Positions 5,311 through 34,548 of a DNA stretch of 64,000 bases are shown here, in pieces (the stretch's first letter is position 1; every line of letters starts with the position of its first letter). The notes under the pieces were generated by a model. The model was not told the origin of the DNA. It did not search any database and saw only the letters and a list, made by a program, of their open reading frames with translations. The stretch lies in NCBI GenBank assembly GCA_037783415.1, contig JAZGTN010000097.1, positions 3,038,001 to 3,102,000 on the forward strand. The letters run 5' to 3'. The DNA comes from Leptasterias polaris (Eukaryota; Echinodermata; Asteroidea; Forcipulatida; Asteriidae). A program made the position numbers and the translations under genes.

Positions 5311-5320
5311 TATATATAAA
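5311..5320 (+). promoter_or_regulatory. TATA box candidate upstream of the Rel-ZU5 gene
   Basis: TATATATAAA lies about 2.1 kb upstream of the first recognised Rel exon, close to an NF-kB site. No start site is visible from sequence alone. Confidence 0.4.
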
Positions 5321-5346
5321 GAGCAGTCAGGGGGACAAACTGTTGT

Positions 5347-5357
5347 GGGGATTTCCC
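5347..5357 (+). promoter_or_regulatory. NF-kB (kB) site
   Basis: GGGGATTTCCC fits the kB consensus GGGRNNYYCC exactly. It lies 27 bases after a TATA-like box, so it would sit near the transcription start. A second TTTCCC half-site follows at once. Confidence 0.45.
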
Positions 5358-7403: not shown

Positions 7404-7612
7404 GTACATGTAAGCGCAAGTCTGAAAATGACATAGAGATGTCGTCTCTGAAGAAACGACGACCGAGCGCCAAGTCTTACTCTGTCGACATCTATGAACA
7501 ACCCAGGTCAATGTGGGTTTCTTTTCTTAATGAAAATGAGATGCCATCTTCCTCGTCGTATATTGTAGGGGAAAGGAGTGAAGCACTGGTCCAGACTAAT
7601 CCTAGCCTGTTG
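7404..7612 (+). CDS. Exon 1 recognised: start of Rel homology domain
   Basis: The acceptor is a pyrimidine-rich tract ending in CAG at 7401-7403; the donor GTAAGT starts at 7613. The exon opens with two bases completing a codon, so an upstream exon ending in phase 1, or a 5' UTR exon, must exist. ATG 7439 has G at -3 and is the first methionine. A basic stretch (KKRRPSAK) precedes YSVDIYEQP, which matches the start of Rel domains (YVEIIEQP in RelA). GERS further on also aligns with RelA. The DNA-recognition loop here reads WVSFLNEN instead of the usual RFRYxCEG. Exon ends in phase 0. Confidence 0.8.
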
Positions 7613-10600: not shown

Positions 10601-13600
10601 GTGAAAATCGTGATCACAGTTATTATGGTCAGCATTACGCGCAACTTTTTAAGTGAATTTTTCAACGTTTATCCAAACCGTACAAATAAATGTAAACGTT
10701 TAACCGTAAGATCTGTCACTTAACCGTGTAACCGTCACAGGCTTACGTATAAGCCTGAGCATTCACGGTTATTTTTTGTCAACATTTCTGAAACAGTTTC
10801 TGAAACAGTTGGTGACCCGTGTAACAGCAGTTTCATAAACAAAATATCAAGAAAAAAAACCTGTTTACACAACCGTGCATGTGACCTAATATCCTAAAGC
10901 GTAAAAATATAAAAGAGTTAGATCCTATATCAAATTGAAGCTTAGTACATGAACTTAACCCTCAATGTAAATTTTTTTTTTATTCTTAATTAATTAGCCC
11001 ATTTACAGCGAGGTGAATATTTAATTAGCCAATCTTGAAACCACTTATCTCGAAAAGTATAGACCTTTCTTTTGCAACGTCACAGCCTGAGTTTTTGCCA
11101 ACCCAGGTTGGAAAAGTATGGAAAGCCATAACTACAAATCAAAAACAGATTGCCACAGTTTGTAGCAGTGTTACAGAAATATTCAAAAAAAGTGTTGAAT
11201 TTGTTGGAAACAAATCAACCAATCATGGAAGGTATTTCCGTTCATGAATCTTTACAGAAAATGTTGAATTTGGTCACAACATTTTTTAACACGATTGAAT
11301 GTTTTGCTAACATTCGGCCGTCCATGCCAATCGGCGCACTTTGTTTATCAACAAAAGAAAGGTCTATACAACCGATCGTCAAACTTTTTTCAGTTATAGA
11401 CTCCTTGGGCATGGGAGATTAGCCTTGGGAAACCGTGACCCCATGTTGACCTTTACTTCCGGGTCAACCGGAAGTGAGACCATATCTCAAGAACTACACA
11501 ACCGAAGTTCAAACTTTTTTCAGTTATGGACTCCTTGGGCATTGGAGATTAGCCTTGGGTAACCGTGACCCCATGTTGACCTTTACTTCTGGGTCAACCG
11601 GAAGTGGGACCATATCTCAAGAACTACACAACCGATATTCAATTTCTTTTCAGTTATAAACCCTTTGAGCATTAAATGTTAGATAAGGGTTACCAAGACC
11701 CCATGTTGACCTTTAATTCTGGTTTAAAAGCTCCTTTCGAATCAGTATCAGAATGAAGACCAGGTTTAGGTTTTTAGGCACACTTAGGTGAAAAGGGGCT
11801 TGTCAAAAAGGTCAAGAGTCTTCTATCTTTAAATCAGACCAACTTTAAAGCTTTGAAGCACTGAATCGAAGCAAAAAAACATGGAACAGCTTTGTGTTTG
11901 TCGACAAACACTTAATGTCTAGTTTTGTTTGTTTGTTTTTTAAAGAGTGACTTAATTCCCAATACCTTACTATCAATAAACACACCATCGCACTAACTTG
12001 TGAAAATTTCATCACATTAGGTGGTCCTATTTCAGTGAAAAACAAATAAAAACGATTTATGCTTTTTCATGGACTTTTAACACCACGTTAATTTTTATTG
12101 TGGCAATCAAAATAAACAACAATGGTTTTGAGAGTCTTCAAATGCTATTCTGTCTATTTCGACTGTTTGTCAGATGCCAATGAGGGTTGGTTCTTGTGTG
12201 AACTTCATAATAAGTACTGGTATGATTTTAGAATAAAACTAATGCATTTTTTGTTCTTGCTTTTAACACTCCTCTACATTGTCATTCATCCCGCTCTCAA
12301 AGCTGTCCAACTTCCGTGGAACTGTCAAGTTAATCTGGTACCTGGTTGCCGATGATGTCAGATATCCCCATCCTTACATTTTGGAAGGGGATGATTGTGT
12401 TGAGGGAGTCTGCACCAAGACCATCAAGGCCAAAGGAGAAGTCGTAAGGTAAGCAGTTTTACTAACTGGATTTTGACGCTTGCCTCTTGTTGGTGTTGTT
12501 AGCTGTTGACAGTGCTGTTGTTGTTGTCACTCAAGCAAGCCCAGATCTTACCATTATAACACTGACTCGGCTGGGGGGGGGGGGGGTGATGTAGTTGGGG
12601 AATTTGATGACAATTACAAGGGGAGAGGAGAAACTAGTCAATAGGTAATAGGGCTTTTTTTATACCATGGCTTGAGCTTGGGCTTCAAATTGGGATCCTT
12701 GGGATCTGTTTGAAGCCTTATAAGGAGAGCACACATCTTCTAAATAACTGACTACGCCCAAGCCCAAGCTGTATTTTATTACTGTGTTGAAATGTAGTAC
12801 TCGTACTTGCAAACGTACTGGTACTCAAGTGCTTTGTTATCTGTACTCATTCTATACTGGTACTCATGAAAATGTCATCAAAGGGATAATAATACAATAA
12901 AGTTTCTTGTACTCGTATTTATACTCACAAGAAAGGGTCTTGGTTTTGTACTCGAACTCATGGCAAAGTCATTTTTACTTGTACTTGTACACATCAAAAT
13001 GTACTCAATGTAATTTCTGCTACAGTAATCTTTATTTTGTTTACACCAACGAGACTTTCTTTACTACTGCCCCCCCCCCAAGGTACATAAAGTTCCAGCC
13101 ACATTGAGAGACTTGCTCAGAGTTTGAACAATCTTATTACAAATTTTTTTTAAACTAGTTTTTCAGGGTTGTCCATTCGCAAGGTGTCTTGGAAAGAAAT
13201 GGAGCAGGTGCTCTCGAATCGAGTTGACCGTCTGAAACAGCTTGTACCAGGTAAATTTTAATTATTTTAACTATTTAATTAGTGAATATCCTTCCCTATC
13301 TTGAATGCTCGTTCCAAGATGTGATCATTTTTATAAATGAATGGTTTGCTTGTGAGATTGCTTTTAGATTTCCAGCCACTTCTAACACACACACACCAAC
13401 ATATGTTTGTCGACTCCATCAATCAAGGACTTCTTTTTGTTTGGACTTACTCTTTTTTTAACAATGTCTCTACTTGTTTAGTCCGCAAAAGCTAAGCAAG
13501 GACTTTCTTGATCTGTCAAAACACCGAGATCCGTTTTGTTATTGTCCTTGGTTTCTACACCCCCTCTACACACACAAATTCAAGTAAATTATTCACAAAT

Positions 13601-16600
13601 CATGTATGCAACTTTTCCTCGGATCAGCTGAATTCCTCTTTTTTATATTCTCATTTGTGCCATTCAAACTTGAAAAAACACTGCACAAAACCATTGGAAT
13701 TTTGTAATTTCCTCTTTTTTGGTGAAGTTACAGTTGCATGCCTGACAAATTGAGAAGTCATTTTGAACTGCCAATGAAATTAACGATAATGAAAAAATCT
13801 AACACAATGAGTTTGGCGAACAACATTACACACTTTCAAGTGACCTGAACATATCTTTTTCTTCCATTAAAATTAATGTTAGTACCCCATGCCCTGCTGA
13901 GAATGAGTTGTGTTCAGTTTTCAAGCATTGTAAGTTTTGCCAAATGAAACCTGTATAGTTTCCGATTTTTGCCATCTTTAAGGCAGGGTTGTGACTACAC
14001 TGGTCGGGGCTGGTCGGCACTAACCAGTTCTAAAAAATCCCGACCGGCTCTCAAGCAATATTACGACATTGCCGACCGGTACTTTTTGCTTCTAAATAAG
14101 CTTAAAAACTAAGGAATTCTTCTTACGTAACTGAAAACTATCAAAATCAAAAGTGTTGTTAAATCTTGTCCTCGACGATCGCGATTGATCATTTCTTGTT
14201 GTGTCATTTTTATTTCAAGTTGACTGTTTGATGCAGCGATGTTTCCCCTTTCCATGTTAGCAGAAAAAAATATATCTCACAGCGTCTGATTGCTGCCGCA
14301 TCCTTTGAGTAAAGCATTAGAAAAACCTAGAAACCAGACGAAAGTAGAACGTATAGCTCTACGTTACCATTGCTCTATGACGTTACGCATCAGTACACGT
14401 AGCCAGACTTCCTCCTTTTGATGCATGTGTTTTATTTTTTATCTAACTCACCAAGTTGTGAGCACATGTCGTTCGTTCACGCGGCGGTGTTATTTTTCTT
14501 GTCGTTATTGTACGACAGATACCCTCGCTTCACGCCGCTCCGCCATACCAGTTGTTCACAAATCGTTCTCCACTGTTTCTTCATTATTTTGTTCACATTT
14601 ATGTGTTCACGAGGGAGATATAGACAAGAAAATTATTTTCTTACGGAAGTATGACGAAAGAAAGCGCACATCTCCGAGCAGTGCACAATCCAATAAAAAT
14701 CTTTTTTAGTCTGGACCGTACGTGCGTTACTGCGCAAACCACATTGACTTCTACTGGGTACTTGACTCACTGCACATTAGACTTGTTAAAAGTCCATCAA
14801 TTTTCAAAGGTTTCTGCGTTCAGCGCTCGCACACCAAATGTATCGTGATCTTCTGTCCCCATTTTTCTCACTGGATTTACACGATTCACACGGGTCGACT
14901 TTTTGGTAAAAAAAAAAAAGAATTTCCGGCAAAAACCGGAGGAATTACATCCCTGGATCATTCTATGTTTTCTTAATACTAACTTACCTTATTAAGTTGC
15001 AAGAATTTTACACAACTTATATTTAATAAATAACAAATACTTTATTTGATTAAATTTGACACTCATCTCATTTCACTTGTCAGCTCCAGATATATGAAGG
15101 ATATTTAGAATTTGTGAGGTATTAAGCAGGCTGGGTATAAGAACTTGATATATTATAGCTCAACATGTGTACTTCTTATTCAGCAAAATACATTGTATGT
15201 TGTTAGTGTCTAGAACCCATAAAATGTGTATTTTTAAGGGTGTAAAATGTAAACATTTTCGGGGCTACCCCCTTTGGACCCATGATGAACGCCTCGCGCA
15301 AGCGCTCTCGGTACCTCGCTTAGCTCGCTCCTCTGTGAAAATTAACCGGCTCTTAAAAAGTTCTGGTCACAACCCTGCTTTAAGGGCAACTTGGGTTTTA
15401 CCTGAGTTGTGTCTAGTGTTCTAATTTGTCTATGCAGCCAAGTGGTCCACTGACCAATCATGCAAGTCATTTGATAAAACTCCCATGTGCTGCACTTTGT
15501 ATTTACGCATAGCGCATAGTAGTGCATTCAACAACAAAAATTGCTTTTTGCTTGTAAAGATGGAGCCATCTTGACGTCACACAGTGTAAAGTCGGCCCTG
15601 CTTTTACAGTGTGTGGCGTCAAGTGGCAACTTACTATATTTAAAGAAATTAGTTTGCTATTCAAATTTATTAGGTATGAAACAACTCCTGGCATAGTGTA
15701 CATATATTTTGCAGGTGTATAATTTGTGAGGATTTTTTTTTTTATGATTTGAGGATTTTTATCACAGTGTCTCTCTGCTGTGAAAACCATGAACATACAA
15801 TCAGAGGATGGAGGAGCTAACCCCGTTGTGTTAAAACCTGTACTTTTTTAGTGTCTGTAATTCCGCTAAAATGTATTGTCCTTTGAATTTCAATCCAGAC
15901 CAAGAGGAGATCGTCACTTACTTTTAGGATTTTGAATTTTAATCACAATTCTGATTGTGTTGCCTCTGTTTCAGAGATGGAGTTTAGAATGAAGAATCTT
16001 AGGGAGTACAACCTGAGGTCAGTCAAGATCTGCTTTCAAGCTCTGCCTCAAGATGCTGTCCATGACTACTCCGTGATCCTTAAACCTGTCATGACAAAAC
16101 ACATACACAGTAAAGGTAAATACATTGGTGTGATGCGTGTTGTATGAATAGTCACAGATTCATCTTAAGACGAGTTGTCACTATCATCATAGTGATTTGT
16201 ATTGTAATAATAATAGTAATAATAAAAACTTATAAAGTGCACAAGTCCACAAAAGTGCTCATGGCGCTACTATACAAAAAATAACATATACACGTACATG
16301 TACAATAATCAAAATGGAAACTTAGACCTAAGCTTTGAAGAAATCCAGAATACAATACATAGTAAAGAAATCCAATTTAAAATATATAAAAACACATGTA
16401 AAAACAAACTATTTACTCAAATACTTGATTGAAAAGATGGGTGTTCAATTTTTTTTAAAATTGGTCTGAAGAAACGGATGTTTTTACTTGCGTGGCGCAG
16501 TGGCGCAGCATGGGAAAAAGATCGATCTCCCCATGAATGATTAAATATTGGCTCAATAAGTAGGTTAGAATTGTAAGACCGGAGTTTGTGAGGAGGATCG

Positions 16601-19600
16601 TATGGTTTGAGAAGATCATCATCATTGTTACATCACACTTTGTTTAGCAATTAAGATACATACAGAGTTAAGATCAATCCTAGCTCTTTGTGAAATCGAA
16701 CCCAGGAACCTTAGTGTAGCACGTTTCTTACCAACACAAATTACCTGTGGTATAAATGCAGAAATTGTTACTGGCTTGTTTCGACCCTAGCAGATTTTTT
16801 CTTAACCACTTCACGTCAGATGATGTGTATATCCGTCAAATTTTCAGATGTACAAAGTTAACTGTAAGATGGCATATTTACCCCTTGCACAACTTGGAAT
16901 GCACTTACACAGACCTGTCCTGCCCGCCATATTGGTAGTCAAAATGTACGCACAGAATGGCGAAATGGTAGCTGCGGAGTTGCATTCCACCTTGTGTGAG
17001 GAGTCAATAGGGATAAATTATAAAGATAAACGTGGTTTTGAAAGGGCTAATTTGTACTATTATTACTTTTAGATCCTTTTCGGCTGAGCGATCCTCAAAT
17101 AGCATCCATAAGTGAGTCCAAAGGAACAGTCCATGGCAAAACTGAAGTCACTCTGCTGGTCTCCAACTTGAAAACTGGTAAGCTAAAATGCATTCATTTT
17201 GAAAGTGTAGTGAGTGACGCACTGTTGCTACTTCTAAGAATATAAGTTTTGCTTTAGTGGGATCAAATTAAATAATACAAAAAACATTGCTAGTTTTAGT
17301 AGATTCAAGTGAAGTCTGATTCACCAAAATCATGACTCAAGTTGAACTTGGGTTCGTGTCTTTCTTAATCACCAAAATTTAGATTCAATTTGAACCCAAG
17401 TCCGAGTCCTGAGTCACCAAAATCATGACTCAATTTCAATCAATCAATCAATCAGAAGACATTTATATAGCGCCAAAATCAACAAAGGCGCTTAAGACAG
17501 TTACATGACAAAGATTTGAGCAGTTTCTTGAAAATATGAATAGTCCGAGCATCCTTGATGTAATTTGGAAGAGTGTTCCATTCTTTTGAACTTGAGACTT
17601 GTGTCTGGTTTTGGCTCCTTAAAGTTTGTCACTATCGTTGAATTGAAATATGCCAAGCTTCAATATGTTTTTATTTTATTTCAGATGATGTTCTGGTGTT
17701 TTTCAGCTATTCAAGTCTTCAACCAAGAATCAGCTGGCAGGCATTTGCTGAAATTTTAACCATCACCCCGACTAAACATAGGGTATGCTTTTTGTTCTTA
17801 CACTATTAGGCTATGGGATTTGAGGCATTGCATGGTGAGGTATCAACGTATATTTGGTTTGCGGTAACACCATGTGTATATCTACTTGCTAGGTGGATTT
17901 TGTTCTTTGAGAACTTGTCTTGCTATTTATTCTACTACCCCGGAGTAGATTATTCGGAATTCGGGAGACTTGCGGAGACTTCTCAGTTCTGAAAAGAACT
18001 GTCCTGCTTATTAACTACTACCTGGGCGGAAGGTAGGAAATCGACCGGGACTACTACTTTCGCTTTGTGGATCAAGGGGACTTCTCATTATTAACTACAC
18101 TGTCGCGGAGTGAGTTCTTAATTGGTCTTAACGTTTCGACTAGCTTGCTCTTGTCATCATCAGGAGACTGTAAATAGCAAGACAAGTTCTCAAAGAACAA
18201 AATCTACCTAGCAAGTAGATATACACGGTGTTACCGCAAACCAAATATGTGACCCGCTCTGCAAAAAAGGCCCATAAGTCGCGCTATGCTAAATCACGTA
18301 ATGAGCTCTTCCATGTTGGAGGAGGGAATTTTTTTTTGCAAATCGATTTTTGTTGTTGTTACCCTGTTTTACAACCCTGATGTCTACTCTTTCATAATTT
18401 AAAACCAGGAAGGTTGATTTTGATCAATAAAGATGAAAAACCCTGTGTTTTGTGATAATGTTTTTAGTGGTTTGGTACGATCAATTTCGTTCGATGATAC
18501 TAAAATGCCGATATTTTCACCTCTGCCAATGCTCTTCCACGAACCCCCCTATTATAAATTTGGTATCATCTTGAAGCTAACGACAAACTCTTTCTATATT
18601 TAGACACAAGAAAGGTGAAGGGTCAAATGCAATTGCTATGCAGGTCATTGTTTCCCCCATAAACAAACTGCGCTTGTTACTAAGGACGTGGACATATCCT
18701 GTCACATGCTCCAAACAGAGCGCATTGATTGGTCAAGACGCCCAATATTGATCTCGCGCATGTGCTGTGGTCTCGCTTCATGGCTTTCTCGGAACACGTA
18801 TGTACTGTACGTAGTGCTAGCATTGTGCGTGCCACGTTGTTTATTCTGCACACACGGCATGGGGGACGAGTTAACCGAGTGCCTTGTTTCCGTCAAAAGA
18901 TCGTCAGGGATTCTTTATCTCCTGTAACTTCTAAGATATGTCACAGATTTCATACTTTCTTTCGTGATTAATTTGATTGAAGATGACTAAAAAAAGACCA
19001 CTATCATGCTAAAGCTTTTTAGGATCTATGAAACGCAAAGATATTCACTTATTCAGAGAAAGGAGAGCTTTAATTATTATACATGTCTGGTTTCGTCGTA
19101 TGATTCGGACTTTTGAGAACTCCTGAATTTATTGAATTGACCATGGTTTTTCTCCTGAAGTCACTCAAGTAATTTTTGAAAAAAATGGGGGATTTTTTTA
19201 TGTAAAGCTGGGTTTATCTCAAGATTGCAAAATGCTACAGAGTTCTATCAAACACCAAACTAAAGCTTAGATTATGGCCTTTCCATCCATGTGTGTAACT
19301 CAAAAAGTGAATTTCGCGACTTATGGGCCTTTTTTGCAGAGCGGGTCACACTATTAGGCTGTTAATAAAGTGTGACACACTGCTGTGTGCCAGTATACAT
19401 CATATTGTGTTATTGGCTTCAGAACCTAAACCACAAGATTGATTGATCGAAGATAAAATGCTTTTAATTCAAACAGTTTCATGTAATTTTATTTTAGTTG
19501 TATTTATTGTATCATTAGAAGAAATAAGAGATAGGTCTGACACTCTCTCTATCTATCTGTAAAATGCCTACTGTTATCATGAAACCAGAGTTTTAATAAC

Positions 19601-22600
19601 GGTTCAAAAGGTTACCATCAAATTGTCATGTCGGTGCAACAAGGTCACAACTCCTAAAATAGCGTTTATGTGAAACGCGAGTTTTAGAATGTCAAAAGGT
19701 CTAAACTTGCTTTAAAAAGCCTGGGTGTACACACAAAGTCAATGGGCTTTGAGGTACGACGTTGTTGCACAGAGCATGTTCACACGAGATGCAACTTTGT
19801 TGCAGAATCGAGTTTTCAAACTTGTTGCACCGGTACAACAATTATTTTTGATTATGACTCATTCATCTAAGAAGGAGAAACATTACCTCTGCTGGGAAAC
19901 ATGTGGTTTCTTAAAGACATGGTTTGGTACTTGGTGATAATCAGAAATGGAAACTCAGTAAATGTAATTGTCTTCTTAAGAAAACTGGTTAGAATGATTT
20001 TATTGAATATCAGATTGGATTGACTCTCCAATATATATTTTTTTAACACCATTATTTTTTCTTCTGTTAAACACAATTAATTGTTGCAAATTACACGTGA
20101 GGCTCCATGCCAAGCCCAGGAACTTCCTGACAAAACACACAACTGGGTTTATTTGCCTATCAGGTTAATGAGAATGAGAGCTTTCAAATAGCGCCTAATT
20201 TTGGCGTACGTGATAATTATTATCAACATATAAAATATTTAAGATGTCCCCTCACACTGTTATCATGGCTAATGTTTCAGTTGTATTCAGTGTTAAAGGT
20301 ATTGTCCAGAATTGGTAGAGCTGACAAAATAGTTGCAGACAGTGTTATTTTTTGTCTAATCAACCACATACATGAAATAACAAACCTGTGAAAATTTGTG
20401 AGTTTGGAAAAAATTGTTGAAAACCATGCACAATTTTCAGCATGTAAACACATTGTCCTTAATTTTGGTTGTAACAACCGAAATCAGAAAAAGAAAATTG
20501 TTCTAGTATGAACTTATAATCAGTAAACTTTCAGACTAGAATTAAACAATGATGTTTTTTATCCTTACCAATCCTGTATAAGACCTTTAATATCATTTTA
20601 CTAGTCCTGAGAAATGCCGGGGTATAACATAGGGCGTCACATATTTTCAGCATTTGCGGTCCCATGCCTCATACCTCATGGTCCCATGCCTCATAGCCCT
20701 TACACTGATTCTGTCCTCTCTGTACTTGACTTCTACAGCAAGCTTCTATTCTGATCCACACGCCACCATTTCACGACCGCAGCATTACAGAGGCAAACAC
20801 TGTGAATGTAGAGATCCGATTGAGGGACAATTCCTGCAGTAACACGGTCAAGTACACATACACCCCTACTACACAAGGTATGTTTTTGCCCCCCCCCCAA
20901 AAAAATAAAAATAAATTGTTTAAAAATAACAAAATGACATGCAAACAGGACGATGTGCGCAAAATGTTTCTTTCAATATAGACCATGTTACCTTTGTTTA
21001 CAGAAATAGTGAACTTGTACATTCTAATGCATGTCCCGACTGGCAAGATACTACACTGGCCATATGGGAAAATTTACATTTTGTGTCATAAGTTTCACAT
21101 AGATTCAAGAGTTACAAAAGCAACAGCTGTACAGCTTTTGAGATGTCCCCCTTTCTTCATATCAAAAGTTGAGAAAAATCAGACAGTGCAATCTCCATAA
21201 AACATAAGATTTATTGTATTCTTCCATTGAGCTACATACAAACTGTGCCTGCAGGAAGTCCAGGCTCTGTGGCTCTTTTGTAAACATGTGATGTCACAGG
21301 TTACACGGTCTATATTTATTTACTTTTGTTAACCCTCCTACTATTAGCCTGTTTTTCAAGACATTTAACCCGTACCACAACAGTGGCATTTTGAGGGACT
21401 CACAAGCTTATTATAGAGAGTAGAGCCTGGTGCCTGGTGCCTGGTGCCTGGTGCCTGGTGCATGTTTCTCTCCATCCTACAATCTAGACTGTTCGAAGAG
21501 GAATATCAGTTCCCACCTTCAGCTCCCCTGAGTTATTTTTATCTTAAATATTTTCATCTTGTAGCCCCTTACCAAGAGTGGCTTTGTTTGGAGCGAATTT
21601 GCATAAAAAATAAAAGACATTTTAAAAAGGGATCCAGGTGTTTTGACAGAGCGAGAAAGTCCTCACTTCAATGGGAGAGAAACTTATCCCTAATTTACCA
21701 GATTGACAATTATGAATGTGTGTGAGTTTTTGGCAATGCATATCTCTCCTTTGAGAAAGACTCTGCTAGGGTCAAAACTCAAAATGTGAGGCCATTAGCA
21801 TAACAATTGACAGGTTGACATATATATGTATGTGTAAGGTGTTATGTATGAACAATATTTCAAAATAAATTTGTTTTTCAGTTGTGAATAGAATCCAGCG
21901 CAGAGTGAAGCAGAAAGGACCAATCTTTGCTAATTACTTCAGCTGCCTGGGAGCTCTGACAAATGTATCCCCGTGTAAGTTCATTTTTCAATTCTGTGAA
22001 TTTCATCTAATCTGTTAAATTTCTCCAGTCTGTTTAATTTGTTCAAAATCTGTGTGTTCTATCAAATTTGTCAGATCTGTCAAATAATCTTTTGTTAGAA
22101 AAAGTTGTCTGCACTGCAACAGATCCATTTGTGCAAAATCTTCCTAAGGCGCAATTGTTTGGATGCAGTATTTAAGGTACCAAATGTTTTCCTGTCATTT
22201 TTTCCAGTGGTACCCACAAGAGAATTGCATCAATATGATGACAAGAGCGCATCAGACTGGGATGAGATCCCCCAAACCACAGGGTTTGATATTAAACCAG
22301 GAAAGCAGAAACAAAAGACACTTACAAGAAAGGAGGACAACAATCCATGGAAATCAACATCTTTGTCATTGCCTGCTGGACAATCCTCACAGGAGAGGAA
22401 ATTGGAAGGGTTCAATTCCAAGGAAGCGATTGATGAAGCAGATGGTAGAGTCGACCCTGATCATCTTAGTCGATACTTGTCTTTGACAAATCTCAATATT
22501 CCAAAAGAGTCCATTGCAAATGGTCCACTATCTCATGAGCGTTACAGAGAGAAGCCCAGCAAAGAGCGTCAATTGTTAATGGAAGCCAGTGGCACAAGTA

Positions 22601-25600
22601 GTTTCAAAACAATAACAGAGGAGAACGTGATGGAAAATCAACTGCACTCCCCTTCGCGAGAAAATAGCCCATTGTCATGGGAAGAAAGCTTCGATGCACA
22701 AGGAGCGAGATTCTACCAAGAGGAAACTACAACAGACGTGACTTATGAAGACAGCTTCATGGGTGATGCATTGAACACAGGAAAGGAGCTGAAACATACA
22801 ACTTATATCAGTAAATCTTCATCCTTGGGAATATTTTCTGAACATGGAGATGGTTTGTCCAAAGTACCTTCGCCTTCTGAGAATTTTATCCCAACAGTTA
22901 ATGACCTAAGAGAAGCAGCTACCCAAATAGGAAATGGAGTCTGGGAAAGAAACACAGACAGTGGTTACAGTGGTTTTACAGTTGCGAGAAGTTCCAATTC
23001 TGCTGTAGTTGTACAAACATGTATTCCAGAACAGAGTGACTCAAGCATTTATGTGGAATCAACACCTACAGATAGTTTAGAAAATAAGGGGTGTACATCT
23101 CATGCAGAGGAAGATGAGAAAAGCACGCCAACAAATCAAACCACCTCTGCAGAAGCTGTGAACTCCACAAATGATCCACAGGGAGCAGAGAGCAATCAAA
23201 ACTTTAGTAGCCAGCATGAAAATGAGAGTGTTTCCAAAGATGGAAATAAAGAAGGTGACGGTCATGATCACTTTGATAAAGATGAAGCAGATGATGATAC
23301 ATTCGTAGAAGAGTTGAACCCTCCAAGAGTGACAAAGCGCATCGATCATAAAGGGGGCACGATCAGTCTAGCCAAGTGCGACATCATCATAATGATCCCG
23401 CCAGGTGCCCTGGCCGAGGGTCAGGAGGAAGAGATTGTGCTGAGTGTTGATTGGAATGACCGTCACATACCTCCGCTGAACAGCTGTGACATGAATGTGG
23501 CACCGATTGTCAACTGTTACCCAACTGGCCTCAAGTTTCTGAAGCCAGTAACCCTCAAGATTCCTCACTGTGCGATACTACCTGATTCTGAGAAGTGCAA
23601 GGCGACAGTTCATTGCAGTCAGACTGATGAAGGTTTGTTGACTTTCAGATCCATTAAAAACATTCTCATTTTAGTTCCGTTTCATGTTTTTTCCATAGAA
23701 TGTCTTTTCTGTCCATTATTATTATTATTATTATTATAAAACGAGTGGAGATGTAGAGGAATGGTTAGTGCAGGTCCTTAATTTACTCAAAACTCTCTAT
23801 CACCCCTCACTTACATCACTCCTGGCGAAACAGATCTTTCTCCCGGTCTGGTCCTTCCCTATGAAACTCACTACCCATCAAACTAAGAAAGGAGACTTCT
23901 TACCTCATATTCAAGAACAAACTCAAAACCCATCTCTTTCACTGATATGTTTTCACCTTCTGATTTTTGTCCATGTCTTCTCAGAAGTCAGTTAAGTTTG
24001 GAGATATTTTCTGCCCCAGGAGTTTCACTATGTGATGAATATGGCATTATTTATAATTATTTTTATTGTTATTTCATTTTATCACAGCATAAAAAATAAA
24101 GATCGCATTTTCTTTTGTGCCGGTAACTCCTCGAGTAGCCTTAGATCTCAAGGGTCTTTTTTAGGATACTTGTAACTTGCTGTTCCCAAACTGCTGCCTT
24201 CTGTAACAGATCTACCCTCACAGTTGTCCCTATTTCATCTAGATGTTTCCCCAGTGATTTCAGAATGGTGCCAAGTGCTCATTTTATTAAAACCATTTAG
24301 AAACAATTGTCTATAGATTCTACATTACTAAATTACGTAAACAGTTAAGCGGTGTGTCCCTTTAATGAGGTCATTATTTGTATACATATTGGTAATAATC
24401 AAACAGGCTTTAAATCTAAAAATGTCTACAATTTATAAAAAGTAAAAACACTTAAATATTTGCTAAACATAAAAACTACAAAATTCAATTACATAATTCA
24501 TGTTTAGTTTTGCTAATAAATACTTTGGGGAAGTTCGATCACCAATAACATTTAATCTGGCATTTCAACATGTGGTAAACCGATTTTATCAAATTCATAC
24601 AAATTGTTATAAGGGCCTTACAGTATTGAACCAACATTATGATGAATGATCATCATTTTGTTTTTTCTTTGCCATTGCTGGACCAGATACATTCAGGAGG
24701 AATGAATATCTTTGATCTTTTTTATACCTTCTATGACAGGTGAAGATCCTAATTGGAAAAGACTGTCACAGGGTGGCGTCACTGATGTCCAGGTTGAATG
24801 CAGTGATAGATACTTTCATCTCCAAATCTATCATTTTACGTCTTTCAGCGTGACTTTAGACAATAATGAGACATCATTGGCAAAAACAGTTATGTTTGTT
24901 ACTTATGGGAAAAACAGGTACTCGGATCTGGACAATCGCGAGATTCGTTTGTACCTTTACGATCACCTTTCAAGTAACAGTGCGGTAAGGAAATGTTTGA
25001 CTGTTTCTGTTAAACTGACTTCTAGTTTTGTACAATGAGGATCCACTATGATGCAGTTCAAGGATAGTTTCATTAGTTTTAGGTGATACTAATACTTGTT
25101 TGCATTTGAGGGGACTGCAAACCGTATTTTTTTTGTTTTACAGTTGTAAAATAATTCAAAATTTGTCATTTTTGTGTGTGGTCAATTGTCTTTAAAACAA
25201 AAGAATACAAACATGTGCTCCAAGGTTTTATCCAGCTAATGCACTTCTTGTTTCGGAGTAAGGCATTCTAAAATGGATGAAAAGCATCACATTTGTGTAG
25301 AAAGCCTTAGGGATTAGTTATTGACAGCAAAAGTTCTTTTTTATCCATTAGTGCAACTTTTGCACATTACAATCCTCATGATTTGTCAATTCTGTAAGGC
25401 CTTTCGTGTGTAAATACTCCACTTATCACTCTATCCTGTTAGTAAGTCAATAAGTCACACGCACACCCACTGTTCAAATGCTTCAACTTTTTACTACTTC
25501 CAGCTCCAAAATTGGCATTGTTTGCAAAATAAACCAAACTTTCCTTAACTGTTTAATGTCAATTCCTTTGACAAACTTCACATTATTTTTTATAAGATCC

Positions 25601-28600
25601 TTAGTCTTTGTACATGTATCCTGATGGTAAGTGATGACGTTTTTGAGCTGGTGTAAACGAATGGTATACATACATGTACATGATTCACATTTGTTACACT
25701 GCACTTCTAGCTCCAAATTGTTACCAACAGGATAGCCTTGTGAAAGGCACGTCCAGAACTTGACATTTTCTTGCAAAAATTCTAAAAGAGAAAATTGCTC
25801 CAATGGATTTCCTACGGGTTTCTGACAATCATTGGATCTGAAGTGTTTAGAGTGGGCTTGGTTTACTGGTACAGTAGAACATTACATAGGATTAGGTATT
25901 GTGTCTCATGACATCACATATTTGCAAGAGAACCCCAAAACCCTGGTCTTCTTGCAGATACAAAAGTGTACAAAGCTCAATGGAAGAAAGCAGATTCTTA
26001 CATTTTATGGAGATGGCAGTGTACAATTTTAATCAGCTTTTTATATGTAGAAAAGGGGCACTATGCAAAACTTAATTTACCCTCCTATGCATTGGTACCA
26101 GCACAGACTTCCACAAAGTACCAGACCTTCCAGGCTAGCATTGGGTACATGGATTTCTTCTGTTTGAACAGCTGGTATTATGTGTAAATCTCATGGCTTG
26201 TGTGCTGTGCACTGTGGAATTTTGTGGGAAGGGCTAGTTGGGCAGGAGAGTATGTCAAATACTTGTTATTATGTGAAATACCTTTTCAGGGAAAGCACTA
26301 TTGAAAACAAGAAATTTCTCGCCATATTCTTTTTAGTTTTTGCCCTACATTATTAATTCGCAATAACTGAGAGAAGTTAGAGGACAAATTTTCTTCTTTC
26401 ATAAAACTGTCCTGCAGAAAATTTACGTAGAGGAACAAAGGTTTGGTGGCAAGATGCTAGATACACCATATTCATATATCGTTGTTGAGCATCGCAAGGG
26501 CTGCATTGATGTGGAAATGCATACCTATATGCATGGCTGGTTGCTGATATCAGAGAACAAACGGGTAAGTCCAATCAGTACCATTGTTCAATGAAGTGTA
26601 CTGTGCTCTTGCAGCCTTCTCAGAATTGTTCTCACTTATAATGAGCAACACCAAACAAAATATTCAAACCTCAGCACAATGGCCTGTTTTTAGAAAATCT
26701 GTAGTTTTGTCCATATTTACCCTCCACCATAGCCAAGCTTGAAATGGTTGGAAAGAGAAAGATCAGATATATCTGATACAGGTAGAAAAACAACTGGAGT
26801 GAACCCAAAAAGATATTGAGTTTATATTTTATTTTGTATTTTATTTATGCTACTTTATTTTTCATTAAAATTCATTGACTTATTGAGCAGATATTTATTA
26901 ATTTATTTACTTATTTAATTATTATTATTCATATATAATTTATTACCCTCAATTATAGCATTTTTAATTTCCAGATTTATTTTCTCATATTACATGTATT
27001 TTATAGGTTTATATATATATTTATTTTGTTTGTAAAATTATTTCTTGTTACCAACCTATGATTGGATGAACAGGCTTTTGAGTCACAGTGTTTTCACTTT
27101 TGTTCTTCCTGGCCATCTTAGATTGGATTGTCTTTACTCTGCTTGTTGTACTCCCTCCCACTTCCCCTCTTCCCCAATCCGCTCCCCTTCTATACATTTC
27201 TCATCCCCACCCATATCTCATTCATACCTACTGTACCGGCCTCTATTACATCTATTCTTTTTGATTGGTATTTGTTATACAATTAATCTCTCATCTTGAC
27301 TGTCCTTGATGTATGACATTTCTTACTTTGTATGTACATGTTTGTATTTAAGAATGTTTTGGCCGAATAAATAATAATAATAATAATATTATTTTTATTA
27401 CATGCACCATTCCCCTCCCAAAGAAACAAAATATTTGCACAATTTTTCAGGTTGCCCATACATGTTGGGTTCAACTAATGATTGTTTATTTTTTGTTTTG
27501 TCTTTCAGTCATTTTCGTTTAGAAAAATCTGGAATGAATGCTCATGGAGCAAATGCAAGTTCATCTTTAAGAACGTATCTCGAAACAAGGAATTTTATTG
27601 CAGAATAAATGCTAAGCAGCAGGGGAGTGAACAGGATTTGTTGGAAATGGAAATCTGTAACAATGTAGAGGTACATATTTATTGAACATCAGCTTTAATA
27701 AATATGGCTATCAAAACCCTGCTTTGTTTGTTGTATTCACAGATCTGACCCTGTTTGACTTTTTCTTTCAATCAAAATCGGAAGTTCAAATTAAATAAAA
27801 AATTAATCTGAACCACATGATATAAATTGTTATTAGGAGAGGTTTTTGAGCCTGTGATAAATAATGCTATTTTATTTTATTTTTGTCACTAGTCAATTCT
27901 GTGGCTGAAGAGGCAAGTTTAATAAAAACTACAGTATTTATTTTAATGTTATTTTTTAAAGTTCTGGTATTGGTTTATCACTTATCTTGACTTGGGGATT
28001 GATTTGTATTTTTTCAGAATTCACCTGGGAACTTGGGTATGCAGAGCCAGGATTTGGTCATGCAGAACGAGAACCCAGAGCCGCTTACCTCAACCATAGA
28101 GCAAGGACTGTCCTTGCTCTATGCCTCAACACAGCAAGGTTTATCTGTAGTTAAAGAGCCAGGTCGCCGTTCACTTTTTGGTAGACCATTATCTACAGAC
28201 AATGCTAGTCTTGACTCTGGAACCAGCCAGATATATGTTCAAGAGGTTCACTATCATTACCAAGGGAGCACGTCTTCAGTTTCTGAAGGTTTAGAGCCAA
28301 TAATTCCTCATGCATTGTTACAAGAGCTTTGTGATTTACTGGATTTACGCTCTCCAGTGAATAATAATTGGAAAAGGCTTGCTGCAGAATGTCAGTATGA
28401 TCGGCACATACGCAAGTGGGAAGACAAGCAGGATAGAAGTGCCGAGTTTTCTCCAACCAAAGAGATTTTTCGTCTTCTTGAGCAAGAAAACAAAATTCTG
28501 TCACTTAATGACCTTGAGGGCCTCTTGAAGAAAATTCAGAGGCCTGATGTTCTTAAAGCATTTACCGAATTTAAAAAGAAGAGGGATCAGCCAAATCCTT

Positions 28601-29202
28601 CATCATCAAACCTGCCTGCACTGACAGGGGGACAAGCAGAGAAGCCTATGAGTACGGACAGCACACCCAGTCCAAATGATACCAACCAACCATTATCTGG
28701 TTTTGGTTTTCCATCACAATGTGATGAAGATGGAACTTCCCGATCAGAGAGAAACGAACCAGTTCAAAGTGATTCTTTCCCCCCTGCCACTGCTTTATCT
28801 TACCAGGGGAGAACAACTCCCAAAAGGCCCTATACAGATCATACCCATGATGATGATTCTACACCATCCACAAATAACAATTGTCGGAGCAATGCTGCTT
28901 GTAAGAAGTTGCCTTGTGATGGAGATGGTACTTCCCGATCGGAGAGAAATGAACCAGTTCAAAGTGATTCTTGCCCCCCTGCCACTGCTTTATCTTACCA
29001 GGGGAGCACAACTCCCAAAAGGCCCTATACAGATCATACCCATGATGATGATTCTACACCATCCACAAATAACAATTGTCGGAACAATGCTGCTTGTAAG
29101 AAGTTACCCTTCAGTGAGTCTGTTAAGGAACTTCAAGATGGATTAGAAGCATTCAATTTGAGTAATGAGGCATTTCGTTCTCGTTCTGACAACTCAAACT
29201 AA
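7404..29202 (+). CDS. Rel homology - ZU5 - UPA - death domain fusion protein (13 recognised exons)
   Basis: Exons join as 7404-7612, 12303-12448, 13159-13250, 15975-16115, 17073-17177, 17685-17782, 20739-20877, 21882-21974, 22208-23632, 24740-24984, 26418-26564, 27509-27670 and 28018-29202 (TAA). All have GT-AG borders and phases that match in series. From ATG 7439 the product is 1,383 residues. Seen: Rel N-terminal domain about 14-185, IPT/dimerisation domain about 186-298, basic patch 300-312, Ser/Thr/acidic linker 330-705, ZU5 about 707-840, UPA about 840-989, death domain about 1084-1175, and a tail with two 65-residue repeats. Family knowledge: Rel proteins are dimeric transcription factors held in the cytoplasm by ankyrin repeats; ZU5-UPA-death modules occur in UNC5, UNC5CL and PIDD. 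No ankyrin repeats are present. Inferred: a Rel-family regulator with a built-in death-domain adaptor. The true start may lie in an unmapped upstream exon, because the reading frame is open back to the 7404 acceptor. Confidence 0.85.
7715..8256. repeat. Degenerate GTACTCG-rich arrays
   Basis: Dozens of variants of GTACTCG, GTACTTG and GATACTC on both strands at 7715-7912 and again at 8135-8256, with unrelated sequence between. Intron 1 of the Rel-ZU5 gene. Confidence 0.6.
8880..9215. repeat. Repeat family R1, uninterrupted copy
   Basis: Begins with a hairpin (AGCTGTTCCGAC..GTCGGAACAGCT, 8881-8912). 8998-9207 is closely similar to 10884-11057 plus 11365-11400, and preserves the empty target of the MITE found in that second copy. 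Confidence 0.75.
9573..9633. repeat. Near-perfect hairpin
   Basis: 28-base arms starting GCACCGTTAAACTCGTATAG with a five-base loop and one mismatch. Probably the remnant of a very short inverted-repeat element. Confidence 0.85.
10884..11400. repeat. Repeat family R1, copy interrupted by a MITE
   Basis: Matches 8998-9207 but is split at AAAAGTATA by the element at 11062-11364; homology resumes at CCGATCGTCAAAC. Confidence 0.8.
11058..11368. mobile_element. TATAGACC MITE, copy B
   Basis: TATAGACCTTTCTTTTG at the left, CAAAAGAAAGGTCTATA at the right. The empty-site copy at 9170-9173 shows TATA where this copy has TATA-GACC..GGTC-TATA, so the target is TA or TATA, as for Tc1/mariner-like elements. 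Confidence 0.9.
11373..11720. repeat. Tandem repeat, period about 129 bp
   Basis: Two full and one decayed copy, each with CAAACTTTTTTCAGTTAT, CCATGTTGACCTTTACTTC and GGTCAACCGGAAGTG. It continues repeat R1. Confidence 0.85.
12303..12448 (+). CDS. Exon 2: Rel homology N-terminal domain
   Basis: Polypyrimidine tract then AAAG acceptor; donor GTAAGC at 12449. It reads through RGTVKLIWYLVADD, PHPYILEGDDC and EGVCTK, matching the Rel core strands that read GTVRISLVTKD, PHPHELVGKDC and DG in RelA. It joins exon 1 in phase 0 and ends in phase 2. Confidence 0.88.
12795..13015. repeat. GTACTCG-rich array in intron 2
   Basis: Same degenerate motif family as at 7715-8256, between Rel exons 2 and 3. 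Confidence 0.55.
13159..13250 (+). CDS. Exon 3: Rel homology N-terminal domain
   Basis: The phase from exon 2 requires the TAG acceptor at 13156-13158 rather than the more obvious CAG eight bases downstream, which would put a stop in frame. The chosen join gives VVSFSGLSIRKVSWKEMEQ, matching VVGFANLGILHVTKKKVFE of p50. Donor GTAAAT at 13251; ends in phase 1. Confidence 0.82.
13976..15385. mobile_element. Non-autonomous hAT-type transposon with 8-bp target duplication
   Basis: The element at 13984-15377 begins CAGGGTTGTGAC and ends GTCACAACCCTG. It is flanked by CTTTAAGG at 13976-13983 and 15378-15385. CAGGG termini and an 8-bp duplication are hAT hallmarks. About 1.4 kb, no transposase recognised. 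Intron 3 of the Rel-ZU5 gene. Confidence 0.9.
15571..15622. repeat. Hairpin
   Basis: TTGACGTCACACAGTGTAAA and a near reverse complement 11 bases later. Confidence 0.75.
15975..16115 (+). CDS. Exon 4: end of Rel N-terminal domain
   Basis: Acceptor TTTCAG at 15969-15974, donor GTAAAT at 16116, phase 1 at both ends. It includes YNLRSVKICFQALPQD and the following SVILKPVMTKHIHSK, matching YDLNAVRLCFQV and the PVLSHPIFD strand of RelA. The region is short, without the long insert of p50, so this half looks more like the RelA/Dorsal class. Confidence 0.9.
16200..16640 (-). repeat. Dispersed retroelement-like repeat
   Basis: An (AAT)n tract, then a GTGCTCATGGCGCTACTATA block typical of invertebrate SINE/LINE 3' ends, then a longer diverged body. 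Intron 4. Confidence 0.4.
17073..17177 (+). CDS. Exon 5: IPT/dimerisation domain, first strands
   Basis: Acceptor TTTTAG, donor GTAAGC at 17178, phase 1 in and out. It encodes PQIASISESKGTVHGKTEV and TLLVSNLKT, matching the start of the Rel IPT domain (LKIVRMDRTAGCVTGGEEI and YLLCDKVQKD in p50). Confidence 0.88.
17433..17590 (-). repeat. Dispersed retroelement-like repeat
   Basis: (CAAT)n then TTTATATAGCGCCAAAAT and AAAGGCGCTTAAGAC, the same kind of 3' end as at 16200. Intron 5. Just upstream (17300-17430) is a degenerate GACTCAA/TTGAAC array. Confidence 0.45.
17685..17782 (+). CDS. Exon 6: IPT/dimerisation domain, middle
   Basis: Acceptor TTTCAG, donor GTATGC at 17783. DDVLVFFSYSS..ISWQAFAEIL..TPTKHR aligns with DDIQIRFYE..VWEGFGDF..TDVHR of p50. 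Ends in phase 0, so the HR of the conserved HRQ motif is the end of this exon. Confidence 0.87.
17850..18248. mobile_element. Element with about 80-bp inverted repeats
   Basis: Left arm from ATATTTGGTTTGCGGTAACA, right arm its near-perfect reverse complement ending CGCAAACCAAATAT. It directly abuts the next element. Intron 6. Confidence 0.85.
18249..19349. mobile_element. Element with perfect 35-bp inverted repeats
   Basis: Bases 18249-18283 (start GTGACCCGCTCTGC) are an exact reverse complement of 19315-19349. The 1.1-kb interior has no transposase frame. Perfect ends suggest a young insertion. Confidence 0.93.
20739..20877 (+). CDS. Exon 7: IPT/dimerisation domain, last strands
   Basis: Acceptor CTACAG, donor GTATGT at 20878. 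It begins QASILIHTPPFHDRSIT and continues NVEIRLRDNS..VKYTYTP, matching RQFAIVFKTPKYKDINIT and VFVQLRR..FLYYP of p50. The usual LRRxSD reads LRDNS here. The intron before it carries two abutting transposons (17850-19349). Confidence 0.88.
20977..21314. mobile_element. MITE family D, copy 1
   Basis: TATAGACCATGTTACCTTTG at the left, TTACACGGTCTATA at the right. Related copies at 50877-51205 and 37937-38191. Intron 7. Confidence 0.75.
21424..21462. repeat. 8-bp tandem repeat
   Basis: Five copies of CTGGTGC-type units. Confidence 0.85.
21882..21974 (+). CDS. Exon 8: basic NLS-like segment after the IPT domain
   Basis: Acceptor TTTTCAG, donor GTAAGT at 21975, phase 1 in and out. NRIQRRVKQKG sits where Rel proteins keep their nuclear localisation signal (QRKRQK in p50). 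Then comes an uncharged stretch FANYFSCLGALTNVSP. The exon joins to 22208 in frame. Confidence 0.8.
22208..23632 (+). CDS. Exon 9: long acidic linker plus first part of ZU5
   Basis: A single 1,425-nt exon, acceptor TTTCCAG, donor GTTTGT at 23633 (less typical), phase 1 in and out. The first 375 or so codons are Ser, Thr, Asp and Glu rich, with no recognisable fold and no glycine-rich region of the p105 kind. The last 98 codons are clear ZU5: GGTISLAKCDIIIMIPPGAL, then PTGLKFLKPVTLKIPHCA, close to UNC5 (PPGAIPQG and GPTGLLLCRPVILTMPHCA). The linker and the ZU5 start share this one exon, so the RHD-ZU5 link does not depend on a predicted splice inside ZU5, only on the 21974-22208 join. Confidence 0.85.
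23836..23945 (+). pseudogene. LINE 3'-end coding remnant
   Basis: One frame reads PSL-stop-NSLPIKLRKETSYLIF then FKNKLKTHLFH-stop, the C-terminal signature of CR1/L2-like reverse-transcriptase proteins (NSLP..FKxxLKTHLF). It is interrupted by a stop. Lies in the intron between exons 9 and 10. Confidence 0.65.
24740..24984 (+). CDS. Exon 10: end of ZU5 and start of UPA
   Basis: Acceptor GACAG, donor GTAAGG at 24985; phase 1 in, phase 0 out. The ZU5 end reads LQIYHFTSFSVTL, where PIDD, NLRP1 and CARD8 carry their self-cleavage motif (HF-S or SF-S). Next comes the first UPA strand, REIRLYLYDHL, matching LRVYCLED of UNC5. Confidence 0.85.
26418..26564 (+). CDS. Exon 11: UPA domain
   Basis: Acceptor CCTGCAG, donor GTAAGT at 26565, 49 codons, phase 0 on both sides. 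FGGKMLDTPYSYIVVEHRKG..DVEMHTY matches LGGQLIEEPRVLHFKDSYHN..RLSIHDV of the UNC5 UPA domain. Confidence 0.87.
27509..27670 (+). CDS. Exon 12: UPA domain, last strands
   Basis: Acceptor TCTTTCAG, donor GTACAT at 27671, 54 codons, phase 0 on both sides. SFSFRKIWNECSWSKCKFIF aligns with the UNC5 strands around YHIWNGTQRYLHCTFTL; IW is kept, and EFYCRINAKQQ follows as the final UPA strand. Confidence 0.85.
28018..29202 (+). CDS. Exon 13: death domain and repeat-bearing C-terminal tail
   Basis: Acceptor TTTTCAG; the reading frame ends at TAA 29200-29202. The death domain (about codons 95-190 of the exon) starts IIPHALLQELCDLLD and includes NNWKRLAAECQYDRHI, matching KIPFLIRQKI and ADWRTLAQKLHLDSHL of UNC5, with the conserved W and L positions of helix 2. 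Before it is a linker; after it come about 200 residues rich in Ser, Asn, Asp and Pro, including a 195-nt in-frame tandem duplication. Confidence 0.9.
   Translation, partial: NSPGNLGMQSQDLVMQNENPEPLTSTIEQGLSLLYASTQQGLSVVKEPGRRSLFGRPLSTDNASLDSGTSQIYVQEVHYHYQGSTSSVSEGLEPIIPHALLQELCDLLDLRSPVNNNWKRLAAECQYDRHIRKWEDKQDRSAEFSPTKEIFRLLEQENKILSLNDLEGLLKKIQRPDVLKAFTEFKKKRDQPNPSSSNLPALTGGQAEKPMSTDSTPSPNDTNQPLSGFGFPSQCDEDGTSRSERNEPVQSDSFPPATALSYQGRTTPKRPYTDHTHDDDSTPSTNNNCRSNAACKKLPCDGDGTSRSERNEPVQSDSCPPATALSYQGSTTPKRPYTDHTHDDDSTPSTNNNCRNNAACKKLPFSESVKELQDGLEAFNLSNEAFRSRSDNSN
28720..29109 (+). repeat. Tandem duplication of 195 nt inside the coding tail
   Basis: Unit 1 is 28720-28914 and unit 2 is 28915-29109. 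They are nearly identical at the DNA level and the unit is a multiple of three, so each copy encodes 65 residues (GDGTSRSERNEPVQSD, then TTPKRPYTDHTHDDDSTPS). The few differences mostly change residues (F/C, R/S, S/N). Confidence 0.95.
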
Positions 29203-31725: not shown

Positions 31726-31955
31726 GATTTTGGGTTGAACAAGGAAAAATTTACTAGAGCGGGATTTGAACCAACGACCTCCGGATTGACGTGCCGGCGC
31801 TCTACCAACTGAGCTATCTAGCCCTATGATGGCGGTCTCCCTATTTTGTCAATATCCTTGTTTGGTGGGTGCCAGTCAGAAGCCATTTAACCGTAGACTG
31901 CCGTGTAGCCAAGGATCACACCCAAGTATACGATACAACCTGGGAAGTGGCAAAA
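31726..31955 (-). mobile_element. tRNA-derived SINE, family S1, minus copy
   Basis: The tRNA-like head is at 31752-31823 (minus strand), with A box TAGCTCAGTTGG and B box GGTTCAAATCC. The body CCCAGGTTG..GATCCTTGGCTACACGGCAG follows on the minus strand. Faces copy 2 head to head. Confidence 0.85.
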
Positions 31956-31956
31956 T

Positions 31957-32300
31957 CATTTAAAATTTACCCAGTCAGTTTCCCAGTGGTTTGTTATTCT
32001 TTTTATTATGGTGATCCCCTGGCTGCCGTTTCCCAGGTTGTATCTTAAACTCGGGTGTGTGATCCTTGGCTACACGGCAGTTTACGGTTGAATGGCTTCT
32101 GACTGGCACCCACCGAACAAGGATATTGACAAAATAGGGAGACCGCCAACATAGGGCTAGATAGCTCAGTTGGTAGAGCGCCGGCACGTCAATCCGGAGG
32201 TCGTTGGTTCAAATCCCGCTCTAGTCAATGTTTCCTTGTTCAACCCAAAATCATTAAAATTTACCCAGTCAGTTTCCCTTGTGGTTTGTTATTCTTTTTA
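31957..32300 (+). mobile_element. tRNA-derived SINE, family S1, plus copy
   Basis: tRNA-like head at 32153-32227 preceded by a body found also at 50505-50650 and followed by ATTTACCCAGTCAGTTTCCC. A 7-bp acceptor-like stem (GGCTAGA/TCTAGTC) is kept, but the anticodon arm and T arm have mismatches. Confidence 0.85.
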
Positions 32301-33827: not shown

Positions 33828-34548
33828 ACTGGCAAAACCGATTGCAAAATAAATGAAGTTGCTGGAACAAAATAGAGAGAAAACAACTCTAGAAATCTAT
33901 CCTTTTGAAGTAGGATTGAAAGGAAATTAATGTGAAACAGTTATAGGGTGCAATAAGTGGAAAGAAGGGGGGACTAAAATTGCAAAAGAAATAAACTAAT
34001 AAAATTGTATTCAAGGTGGTAAAGTTGACAAAACATTGGGCTAAATGGTAAATTTGCATCCGAGGATAAAGTTTATCCTTCCAATGGCAAATTTAACATC
34101 TATAAAACTGTTGTGTTGCAGTTAAAAATATAGGATTTGGACTTCCACTAGCCCCCTAGCTACCGGGCAATATCAGTGGTTTAGTGGTAAGACCGGCGTC
34201 TGCTCTAGAATGGTAAAGGTCGTTGGGTGGCCTGTGTTTTTTGTTTCAGTCATCGATCGGTGTAAACCAAAAAAACAACATTGGGTGCTCCGCCCTCTGT
34301 TGTCGTTATTCAAAGATATCGGAATGGGTAATCCCCGGTTGGTCTAGTATAGTACACGGACGGAACACTAAAGCGTCACATTCATGATGATAATACAGGG
34401 CTCGTCGGGTGCCCTTTCGCGGTGTAGTTGTGTACTCTCGTAGCGTACGTGCAATACTTTCTGCCCGGAACTCGTCCTGTGTTGAACGTACCGTGTAACG
34501 TACGTTCAACCGCGGGTCCGGGTATGCAAGCGCCTGACGAGAACCCCG

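Follow-up and report, generated by a model that had tools for sequence, protein, structure and literature searches.

A predicted starfish gene joining a Rel homology region without most of its DNA contacts to an UNC5CL-type ZU5-UPA-death module

Introduction

A locus of the sea star Leptasterias polaris raises the question of whether a Rel homology region and a ZU5-UPA-death module, which lie one after the other on the same strand, belong to one gene, and if so, what kind of protein that gene would make. We address this in a window of 64,000 nucleotides (the whole stretch of DNA analysed, to which all coordinates refer) and in the 629.7-Mb assembly of 334 contigs that was searched for relatives. 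We examine in turn the structure and domains of the gene, the unity of its two halves, its relatives in the same genome, the origin and state of the Rel half, and the functions that these features may point to.

Results and discussion

Structure of the gene and its surroundings

The gene was rebuilt from the raw sequence as 13 exons with exact borders, extending from 7404 to 29202 on the forward strand (Table 1). All 12 introns have GT-AG ends, all phases fit, and the joined frame of 1394 codons is free of internal stops, its stop codon ending at 29202. The thirteen exons and consistent phases of the original prediction, including the junctions 21974/22208 and 23632/24740, are reproduced by this reconstruction. 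The acceptor of intron 2 that fits the phase lies before 13159 (after CTAG) and restores VVSFSGL, which agrees with other Rel proteins. The earliest in-frame ATG, at 7439, yields a protein of 1383 amino acids. Exon 1 opens at an acceptor (7404), which implies one or more 5' exons further upstream. The basic stretch of exon 8 lies near what we take to be the usual place of the Rel NLS. The final exon carries an in-frame tandem duplication of 195 bases (28720-29108) whose copies are 96% identical, and intron 1 contains a 130-base tandem repeat in 2.8 copies (11364-11722).

Table 1. Exons of the fusion gene in window coordinates, with the phase in which each exon ends
Exon	Position	Strand	End phase	Content
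1 (as seen)	7404..7612	+	0	RHD-n start; ATG 7439; basic KKRR; opens at acceptor, 5' exon missing
2	12303..12448	+	2	RHD-n; flanking introns match both ordinary Rel genes in place and phase
3	13159..13250	+	1	RHD-n
4	15975..16115	+	1	RHD-n end
5	17073..17177	+	1	RHR-c (dimerisation domain) start
6	17685..17782	+	0	RHR-c
7	20739..20877	+	1	RHR-c end
8	21882..21974	+	1	Rel-half tail; basic RIQRRVKQK
9	22208..23632	+	1	linker of about 375 aa and most of ZU5 (match 23335-23589)
10	24740..24984	+	0	HFT motif at ZU5 end; UPA start
11	26418..26564	+	0	UPA
12	27509..27670	+	0	UPA
13	28018..29202	+		death domain (residues 1091-1172, about 28321-28566); tail with duplication; stop codon

The flanking DNA contains, roughly 2 kb ahead of exon 1, TATATATAAA followed some 30 bases on by the perfect kB site GGGGATTTCCC (5311-5357, the kB site itself at 5347-5357). 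The window contains seven matches to the kB consensus, overlaps included, where 3.65 are expected, and 13 of 100 shuffles had as many, so that the excess is not clearly above chance; as an autoregulatory promoter site, GGGGATTTCCC is a lead at most. Downstream, an open frame at 34486-35157 (+) matches spastin (PDB identifier 6p07, E 3.8e-6) and marks the start of a spastin gene, while the open frame at 45180-45488 (+) resembles a further spastin exon by eye only and has no Pfam match. Four tRNA-Asp (GTC) genes, one of them on the minus strand, are also present (31751-31823, 32155-32227, 50332-50404 and 50653-50725).

Domains of the joined protein

A Pfam profile search with the 1383-residue protein found seven families at E values up to 1. 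Both Rel subdomains score above their Pfam cut-offs, RHD_DNA_bind over residues 16-183 (6.2e-20, 72.3 bits, cut-off 27) and RHD_dimer over residues 194-296 (1.2e-16, 61.1 bits, cut-off 28.3). They are followed by ZU5 (residues 706-790, 4.4e-21), UPA (residues 853-983, 4.9e-4, with 20.2 bits under the cut-off of 27) and Death (residues 1091-1172, 7.1e-8); TIG and DED matches remain under their cut-offs. The UPA region is also covered by the alignments to UNC5B and to the closest relative in the same genome, on contig C69. No ankyrin family and no LRR matched the protein at E values up to 1. The predicted order of Rel, ZU5, UPA and death domain without ankyrin repeats is thus borne out by the domain search, with UPA under its cut-off, and the C-terminal half has the three domains of the UNC5/UNC5CL type in their usual succession.

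Comparison with solved structures leads to the same families. The Rel half finds c-Rel first (1.3e-30) and also RelB, p65, p52 and p50; the C-terminal half finds UNC5B first (3.8e-16) and then ZO-1, with ankyrins far weaker (0.0078 at best). The alignment to UNC5B falls into two parts, of which the first covers ZU5-UPA and the second, covering the death domain, is weak (E 0.3 alone), and that to C69 is likewise made up of a ZU5-UPA stretch and a weak death-domain stretch. When the isolated death domain is used, Unc5h2 (E 0.0034) and UNC5B (0.019) are the only solved structures below 0.1, and no p105 chain occurs among the 12 matches to E 10. A structure model of the death domain is poor (mean pLDDT 64.6) and was not used as evidence; it found nothing in the PDB at E 0.001, the first two of its 17 matches being the death domains of UNC5H2 (0.49) and p75 (0.93). 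The linker of about 375 residues is rich in Ser (13.0%), Thr (8.5%) and Glu (10.6%). No membrane-type hydrophobic segment is seen in the fusion protein by 19-residue hydropathy, which peaks at 1.44, as against 3.33 in C69.

Evidence that the two halves form one gene

The junction between the two halves lies at intron 8. From its acceptor, exon 9 runs open through 123 codons before the earliest in-frame ATG (22579). An opening of this length arose in 11 of 20000 trials of a first-order Markov model of four local introns and in 57 of 20000 trials of a model with the composition of the stretch itself, and the other frames contain 1 stop and 11 stops. Using codon statistics trained on 4360 codons from seven other ZU5-locus open frames of the same genome, the opening scores 20.0 in frame, a value that none of 1861 overlapping intron windows reaches (maximum 8.9); since the remaining two frames also score above all intron windows (17.0 and 12.8), this test shows exon-like composition more than frame. 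Coding sequence therefore most likely reaches the acceptor at 22208. This would require a phase 1 donor upstream, and exon 8 has one. Phase 1 is also shared by the ends of exons 3, 4, 5 and 7, so that exon skipping could keep the frame as well.

A phase match at a single junction has a 1 in 3 chance of arising, and two neighbours, one Rel-like and one UNC5CL-like, might have been joined in error, or be joined solely through rare read-through. The long opening of exon 9 ahead of its ATG and the exon-like composition there speak against such a pair, as do the shortness of intron 8 (233 bases), in which AATAAA, ATTAAA and TATAAA are all absent, and exon 8 itself, which has no in-frame stop ahead of its donor. 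We consider two separate genes improbable. The sequence tests favour a single gene for the Rel half and the ZU5-UPA-death half, with a transcript that would join exons 8 and 9.

Relatives in the same genome

A search of the contigs with the RHD_DNA_bind profile returned six matches, which fall at two other loci. The locus on C91 encodes the loop RFRYDCEG with ankyrin repeats downstream and is an ordinary NF-kB, and that on C300 encodes RFRYECEGRSAGS and both Rel subdomains and is an ordinary Rel. The fusion gene is absent from these matches, presumably because single exons score low. The death-domain module had been proposed to stand in place of an IkB half; this description is incomplete, as an ordinary Rel-ankyrin gene (C91) is found elsewhere in the genome.

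The ZU5 profile has 27 matches genome-wide, that of the fusion gene included. Among these loci, C72 encodes a PIDD that has LRRs and two HFS motifs, and C69 has a single open frame of 725 amino acids in which one membrane-type segment precedes ZU5, UPA and Death; we take this to be the layout of UNC5CL. A genome search with the whole protein gave 29 matches, the best of which outside the fusion gene is C69 (residues 704-1174, 8.9e-13; 70.5 bits against the C-terminal half). It is also the only one of the 29 to span ZU5 through the death domain, so that, of the UNC5/PIDD-type module originally put forward, the PIDD label suits the C-terminal half less well than UNC5CL-like would. The whole-protein search revealed no second copy of the fusion, but it missed C91 and C300 too and is thus weak for divergent Rel exons. 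Because separate NF-kB, Rel, PIDD and UNC5CL-like genes exist in this genome, the fusion gene is additional to them.

The genome also contains an expanded ZU5 family on contigs C9, C14, C68, C73, C125 and C169 (loci L013-L017 and L020-L025). Two of its members, L013 on C9 and L014 on C125, have ZU5 exons with identical open frames of 257 amino acids, which would fit either a haplotype left uncollapsed or a duplication of very recent date.

The HFT motif at the end of ZU5

A candidate that looked promising at first, and was then ranked low, is self-cleavage at the HF|T of the ZU5 end, in the manner of the HF/S of PIDD, which would yield two fragments, Rel-ZU5 and UPA-death, each with its own fate. 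According to the accessible text of PMC3210808, PIDD is cut at HF/S and CARD8/NLRP1 at SF/S, and in the alignment the H-F-T falls at or next to the Q-L-G position of UNC5B; the genome's own PIDD carries two HFS motifs. In the fusion protein, however, the Ser nucleophile is replaced by Thr, and H-F-T recurs at the same place in eight of the 20 ZU5 loci read in this genome (two of the eight being identical), with HFC in another four. This recurrence makes H-F-T look like a structural motif of the family, and cleavage unlikely.

Origin of the Rel half and loss of its DNA contacts

Intron positions connect the Rel half to ordinary Rel genes. Introns 1 (phase 0) and 2 (phase 2) have identical places and phases in all three genes, the fusion gene, C91 and C300. 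With C300 the fusion gene further shares intron 5 (phase 1), which C91 lacks, and, on a comparison of exon ends by eye, introns 4 and 7 (phase 1); intron 6 (phase 0) is offset by one codon from the C300 and C91 intron, and intron 3 has no counterpart in C300. These matches in place and phase show that the Rel half derives from a Rel gene and is not a chance similarity.

The fusion protein was aligned with five ordinary Rel proteins, namely C300, C91, c-Rel, p65 and RelB, and compared at 11 positions that we take to be the DNA contacts of the p65 literature. (The C91 sequence is probably one residue too long after the PIYDS join, the contact column being K either way.) The recognition loop R-F-R-Y-x-C-E is replaced in the fusion protein. 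The residues R33, R35, Y36, C38 and K122 of p65 are changed to S, L, N, N and S, and K123, R187, K218, Q220 and K221 to W, D, N, K and T, leaving E39 as the sole contact kept among the 11 listed p65 positions. By comparison, c-Rel keeps all 11, C300 10, RelB nine and C91 eight. Although the Rel subdomains are recognisable by profile, the protein departs from the Rel/NF-kB family in its loop and contacts.

We further asked how this loss compares with that at other conserved positions. The ordinary proteins are invariant in 80 columns in which at least four of the five have a residue, and eight of these columns are contacts; the fusion protein keeps one of these eight contacts and 45 of the 72 other invariant positions (Fisher p 0.009), or one of eight against 41 of 67 when all five are required to have a residue (p 0.018), a test that rests on eight contact columns. 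The loss therefore appears to be heavier at positions that touch DNA. As judged from the alignment, the residues with which a Rel protein reads kB DNA are gone from the Rel half, while much of the fold is kept. The working Rel factor initially envisaged accordingly finds no support as regards kB binding, the loop being replaced and 10 of the 11 listed contacts differing.

The identity of the Rel half to the five ordinary Rel proteins is low, 28-32% over RHD-n and 27-37% over RHR-c, as might be expected if the gene were decaying and its Rel half drifting without function. The frame nevertheless runs through 1394 codons without a stop or frame break, the splice sites are all intact and the contacts are lost more heavily than other invariant positions, which makes decay very improbable. 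The dimer face is altered as well. Six of the 15 positions that we take to form it match p65 in the fusion protein (E211, L215, H245, R246, Q247 and I250, the other nine differing), as against 13 in C300 and 12 in C91; of the 11 that are invariant in the five ordinary proteins six are kept, which is about the background rate. Docking of the ordinary Rel-dimer kind is therefore not assured. It is possible that the fusion protein dimerises, and its partners may differ from those of ordinary Rel.

A proposed function

In UNC5B, the ZU5 domain is packed against both UPA and the death domain, and the three form an autoinhibited unit. Binding to p65, with impaired DNA binding by p65, has been reported for human UNC5CL or ZUD (Zhang 2004, as cited in PMC13255311), as have recruitment of IRAK1, IRAK4 and TRAF6 and MyD88-independent activation of NF-kB and JNK (Heinz 2012, as cited in PMC7570868); as related in these secondary sources, the two reports oppose each other in direction, one describing inhibition and the other activation of NF-kB. 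The fusion had been read as a Rosetta-stone link between two proteins of one pathway, and this idea gains weight from the reported binding of UNC5CL to p65 and its action via IRAK1, IRAK4 and TRAF6.

Taken with the gene structure, the domains and the lost DNA contacts read from the sequence, the UNC5CL reports and the autoinhibition of UNC5B make a Rel-fold death-domain signalling adaptor, or a modulator of NF-kB, the best-supported reading of the fusion protein, to which we give an even chance of being correct, as opposed to an ordinary kB-binding factor. Such an adaptor would face the receptor side with its death domain and the NF-kB side with its Rel half. ZU5-UPA would hold the death domain shut, as in UNC5B, until a signal from the receptor side freed it to meet other death-domain proteins. 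The Rel half would dock on NF-kB subunits or on another partner, and docked NF-kB subunits could be brought to the signalling complex or held from it, so that the effect might be either to promote or to restrain NF-kB. The changed dimer face speaks against this reading, and the basic stretches would fit nuclear entry.

The main rival reading is that the protein is a Rel transcription factor that does bind DNA, perhaps preferring a new kind of site, and is released or activated via its own death-domain module. The Rel fold is recognised in both halves of the Rel region, the basic stretches could serve as nuclear signals and the Ser-, Thr- and Glu-rich linker could activate transcription; as the equivalents of p65 R33, R35, Y36, C38, K122, K123, R187, K218, Q220 and K221 all differ, however, we regard such a factor as rather unlikely. 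The adaptor or modulator may, more tentatively and with somewhat less than an even chance, represent a new class of Rel protein that does not read kB DNA, with the Rel fold as an arm for docking on NF-kB subunits, the ZU5-UPA-death module as a switch and the vertebrate partnership of UNC5CL with p65 fixed in one chain. A natural fusion of Rel with an UNC5CL-type module constitutes an evolutionary argument for the presence of both in one complex, and offers a single protein in which the Rel-UNC5CL link becomes testable. If a Rel homology region survives with its DNA contacts gone, this would further show that evolution can retain the Rel fold for uses other than reading DNA.

Comparison with known systems

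No paper among the matches listed in our literature searches, whose coverage leaves most subscription papers outside, describes a Rel-ZU5-death protein, and co-mentions of 'ZU5 domain' and 'Rel homology' among the matches listed concern, in the text displayed, human ankyrin repeats and honeybee castes only. Rel proteins that carry ankyrin repeats, transactivation tails or death domains are described in the accessible parts of two papers on the evolution of the family (PMC8763368, PMC11432056), and the term 'ZU5' has no occurrence in either. According to the available portion of the latter, echinoderms average two p50/p105 proteins and have members in two p50/p105 groups (PMC11432056); database copies of the fusion gene may therefore be filed as p105-like. 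Shuffling of UPA-ZU5-type modules has precedent, given that a clade of TRADD-N proteins bearing a fused UPA-ZU5 module (PMC8195603) and many hybrid immune genes in amphioxus (PMC2575513) are reported in the accessible text of these papers.

The fusion protein resembles p105/p100 in having an N-terminal Rel homology region and a death domain towards the C-terminus. It differs from them in carrying ZU5-UPA where they carry ankyrin repeats, in a death domain that is nearest to UNC5 by sequence, and in the loss of DNA contacts. With PIDD it shares the ZU5-UPA-death core and an H-F motif at the ZU5 end; unlike PIDD, it has no LRR, a single ZU5 and HFT instead of HFS, and the PIDD of this genome is a separate gene (C72). 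The ankyrin repeats of p105/p100, the membrane segment of UNC5CL and the LRR and HF/S of PIDD are thus all absent from it. Rel, c-Rel and Dorsal are matched in both Rel subdomains, and introns 1, 2, 4, 5 and 7 are those of C300, whereas the DNA-recognition loop has been lost and a C-terminal ZU5-UPA-death module added. UNC5CL/ZUD consists of an N-terminal membrane segment, ZU5, UPA and a death domain, and is not known to have a large N-terminal domain. The fusion protein has the same ZU5-UPA-death order, and its nearest relative in the same genome, C69, is of the UNC5CL kind, but in place of the membrane segment it bears a Rel homology region and a linker.
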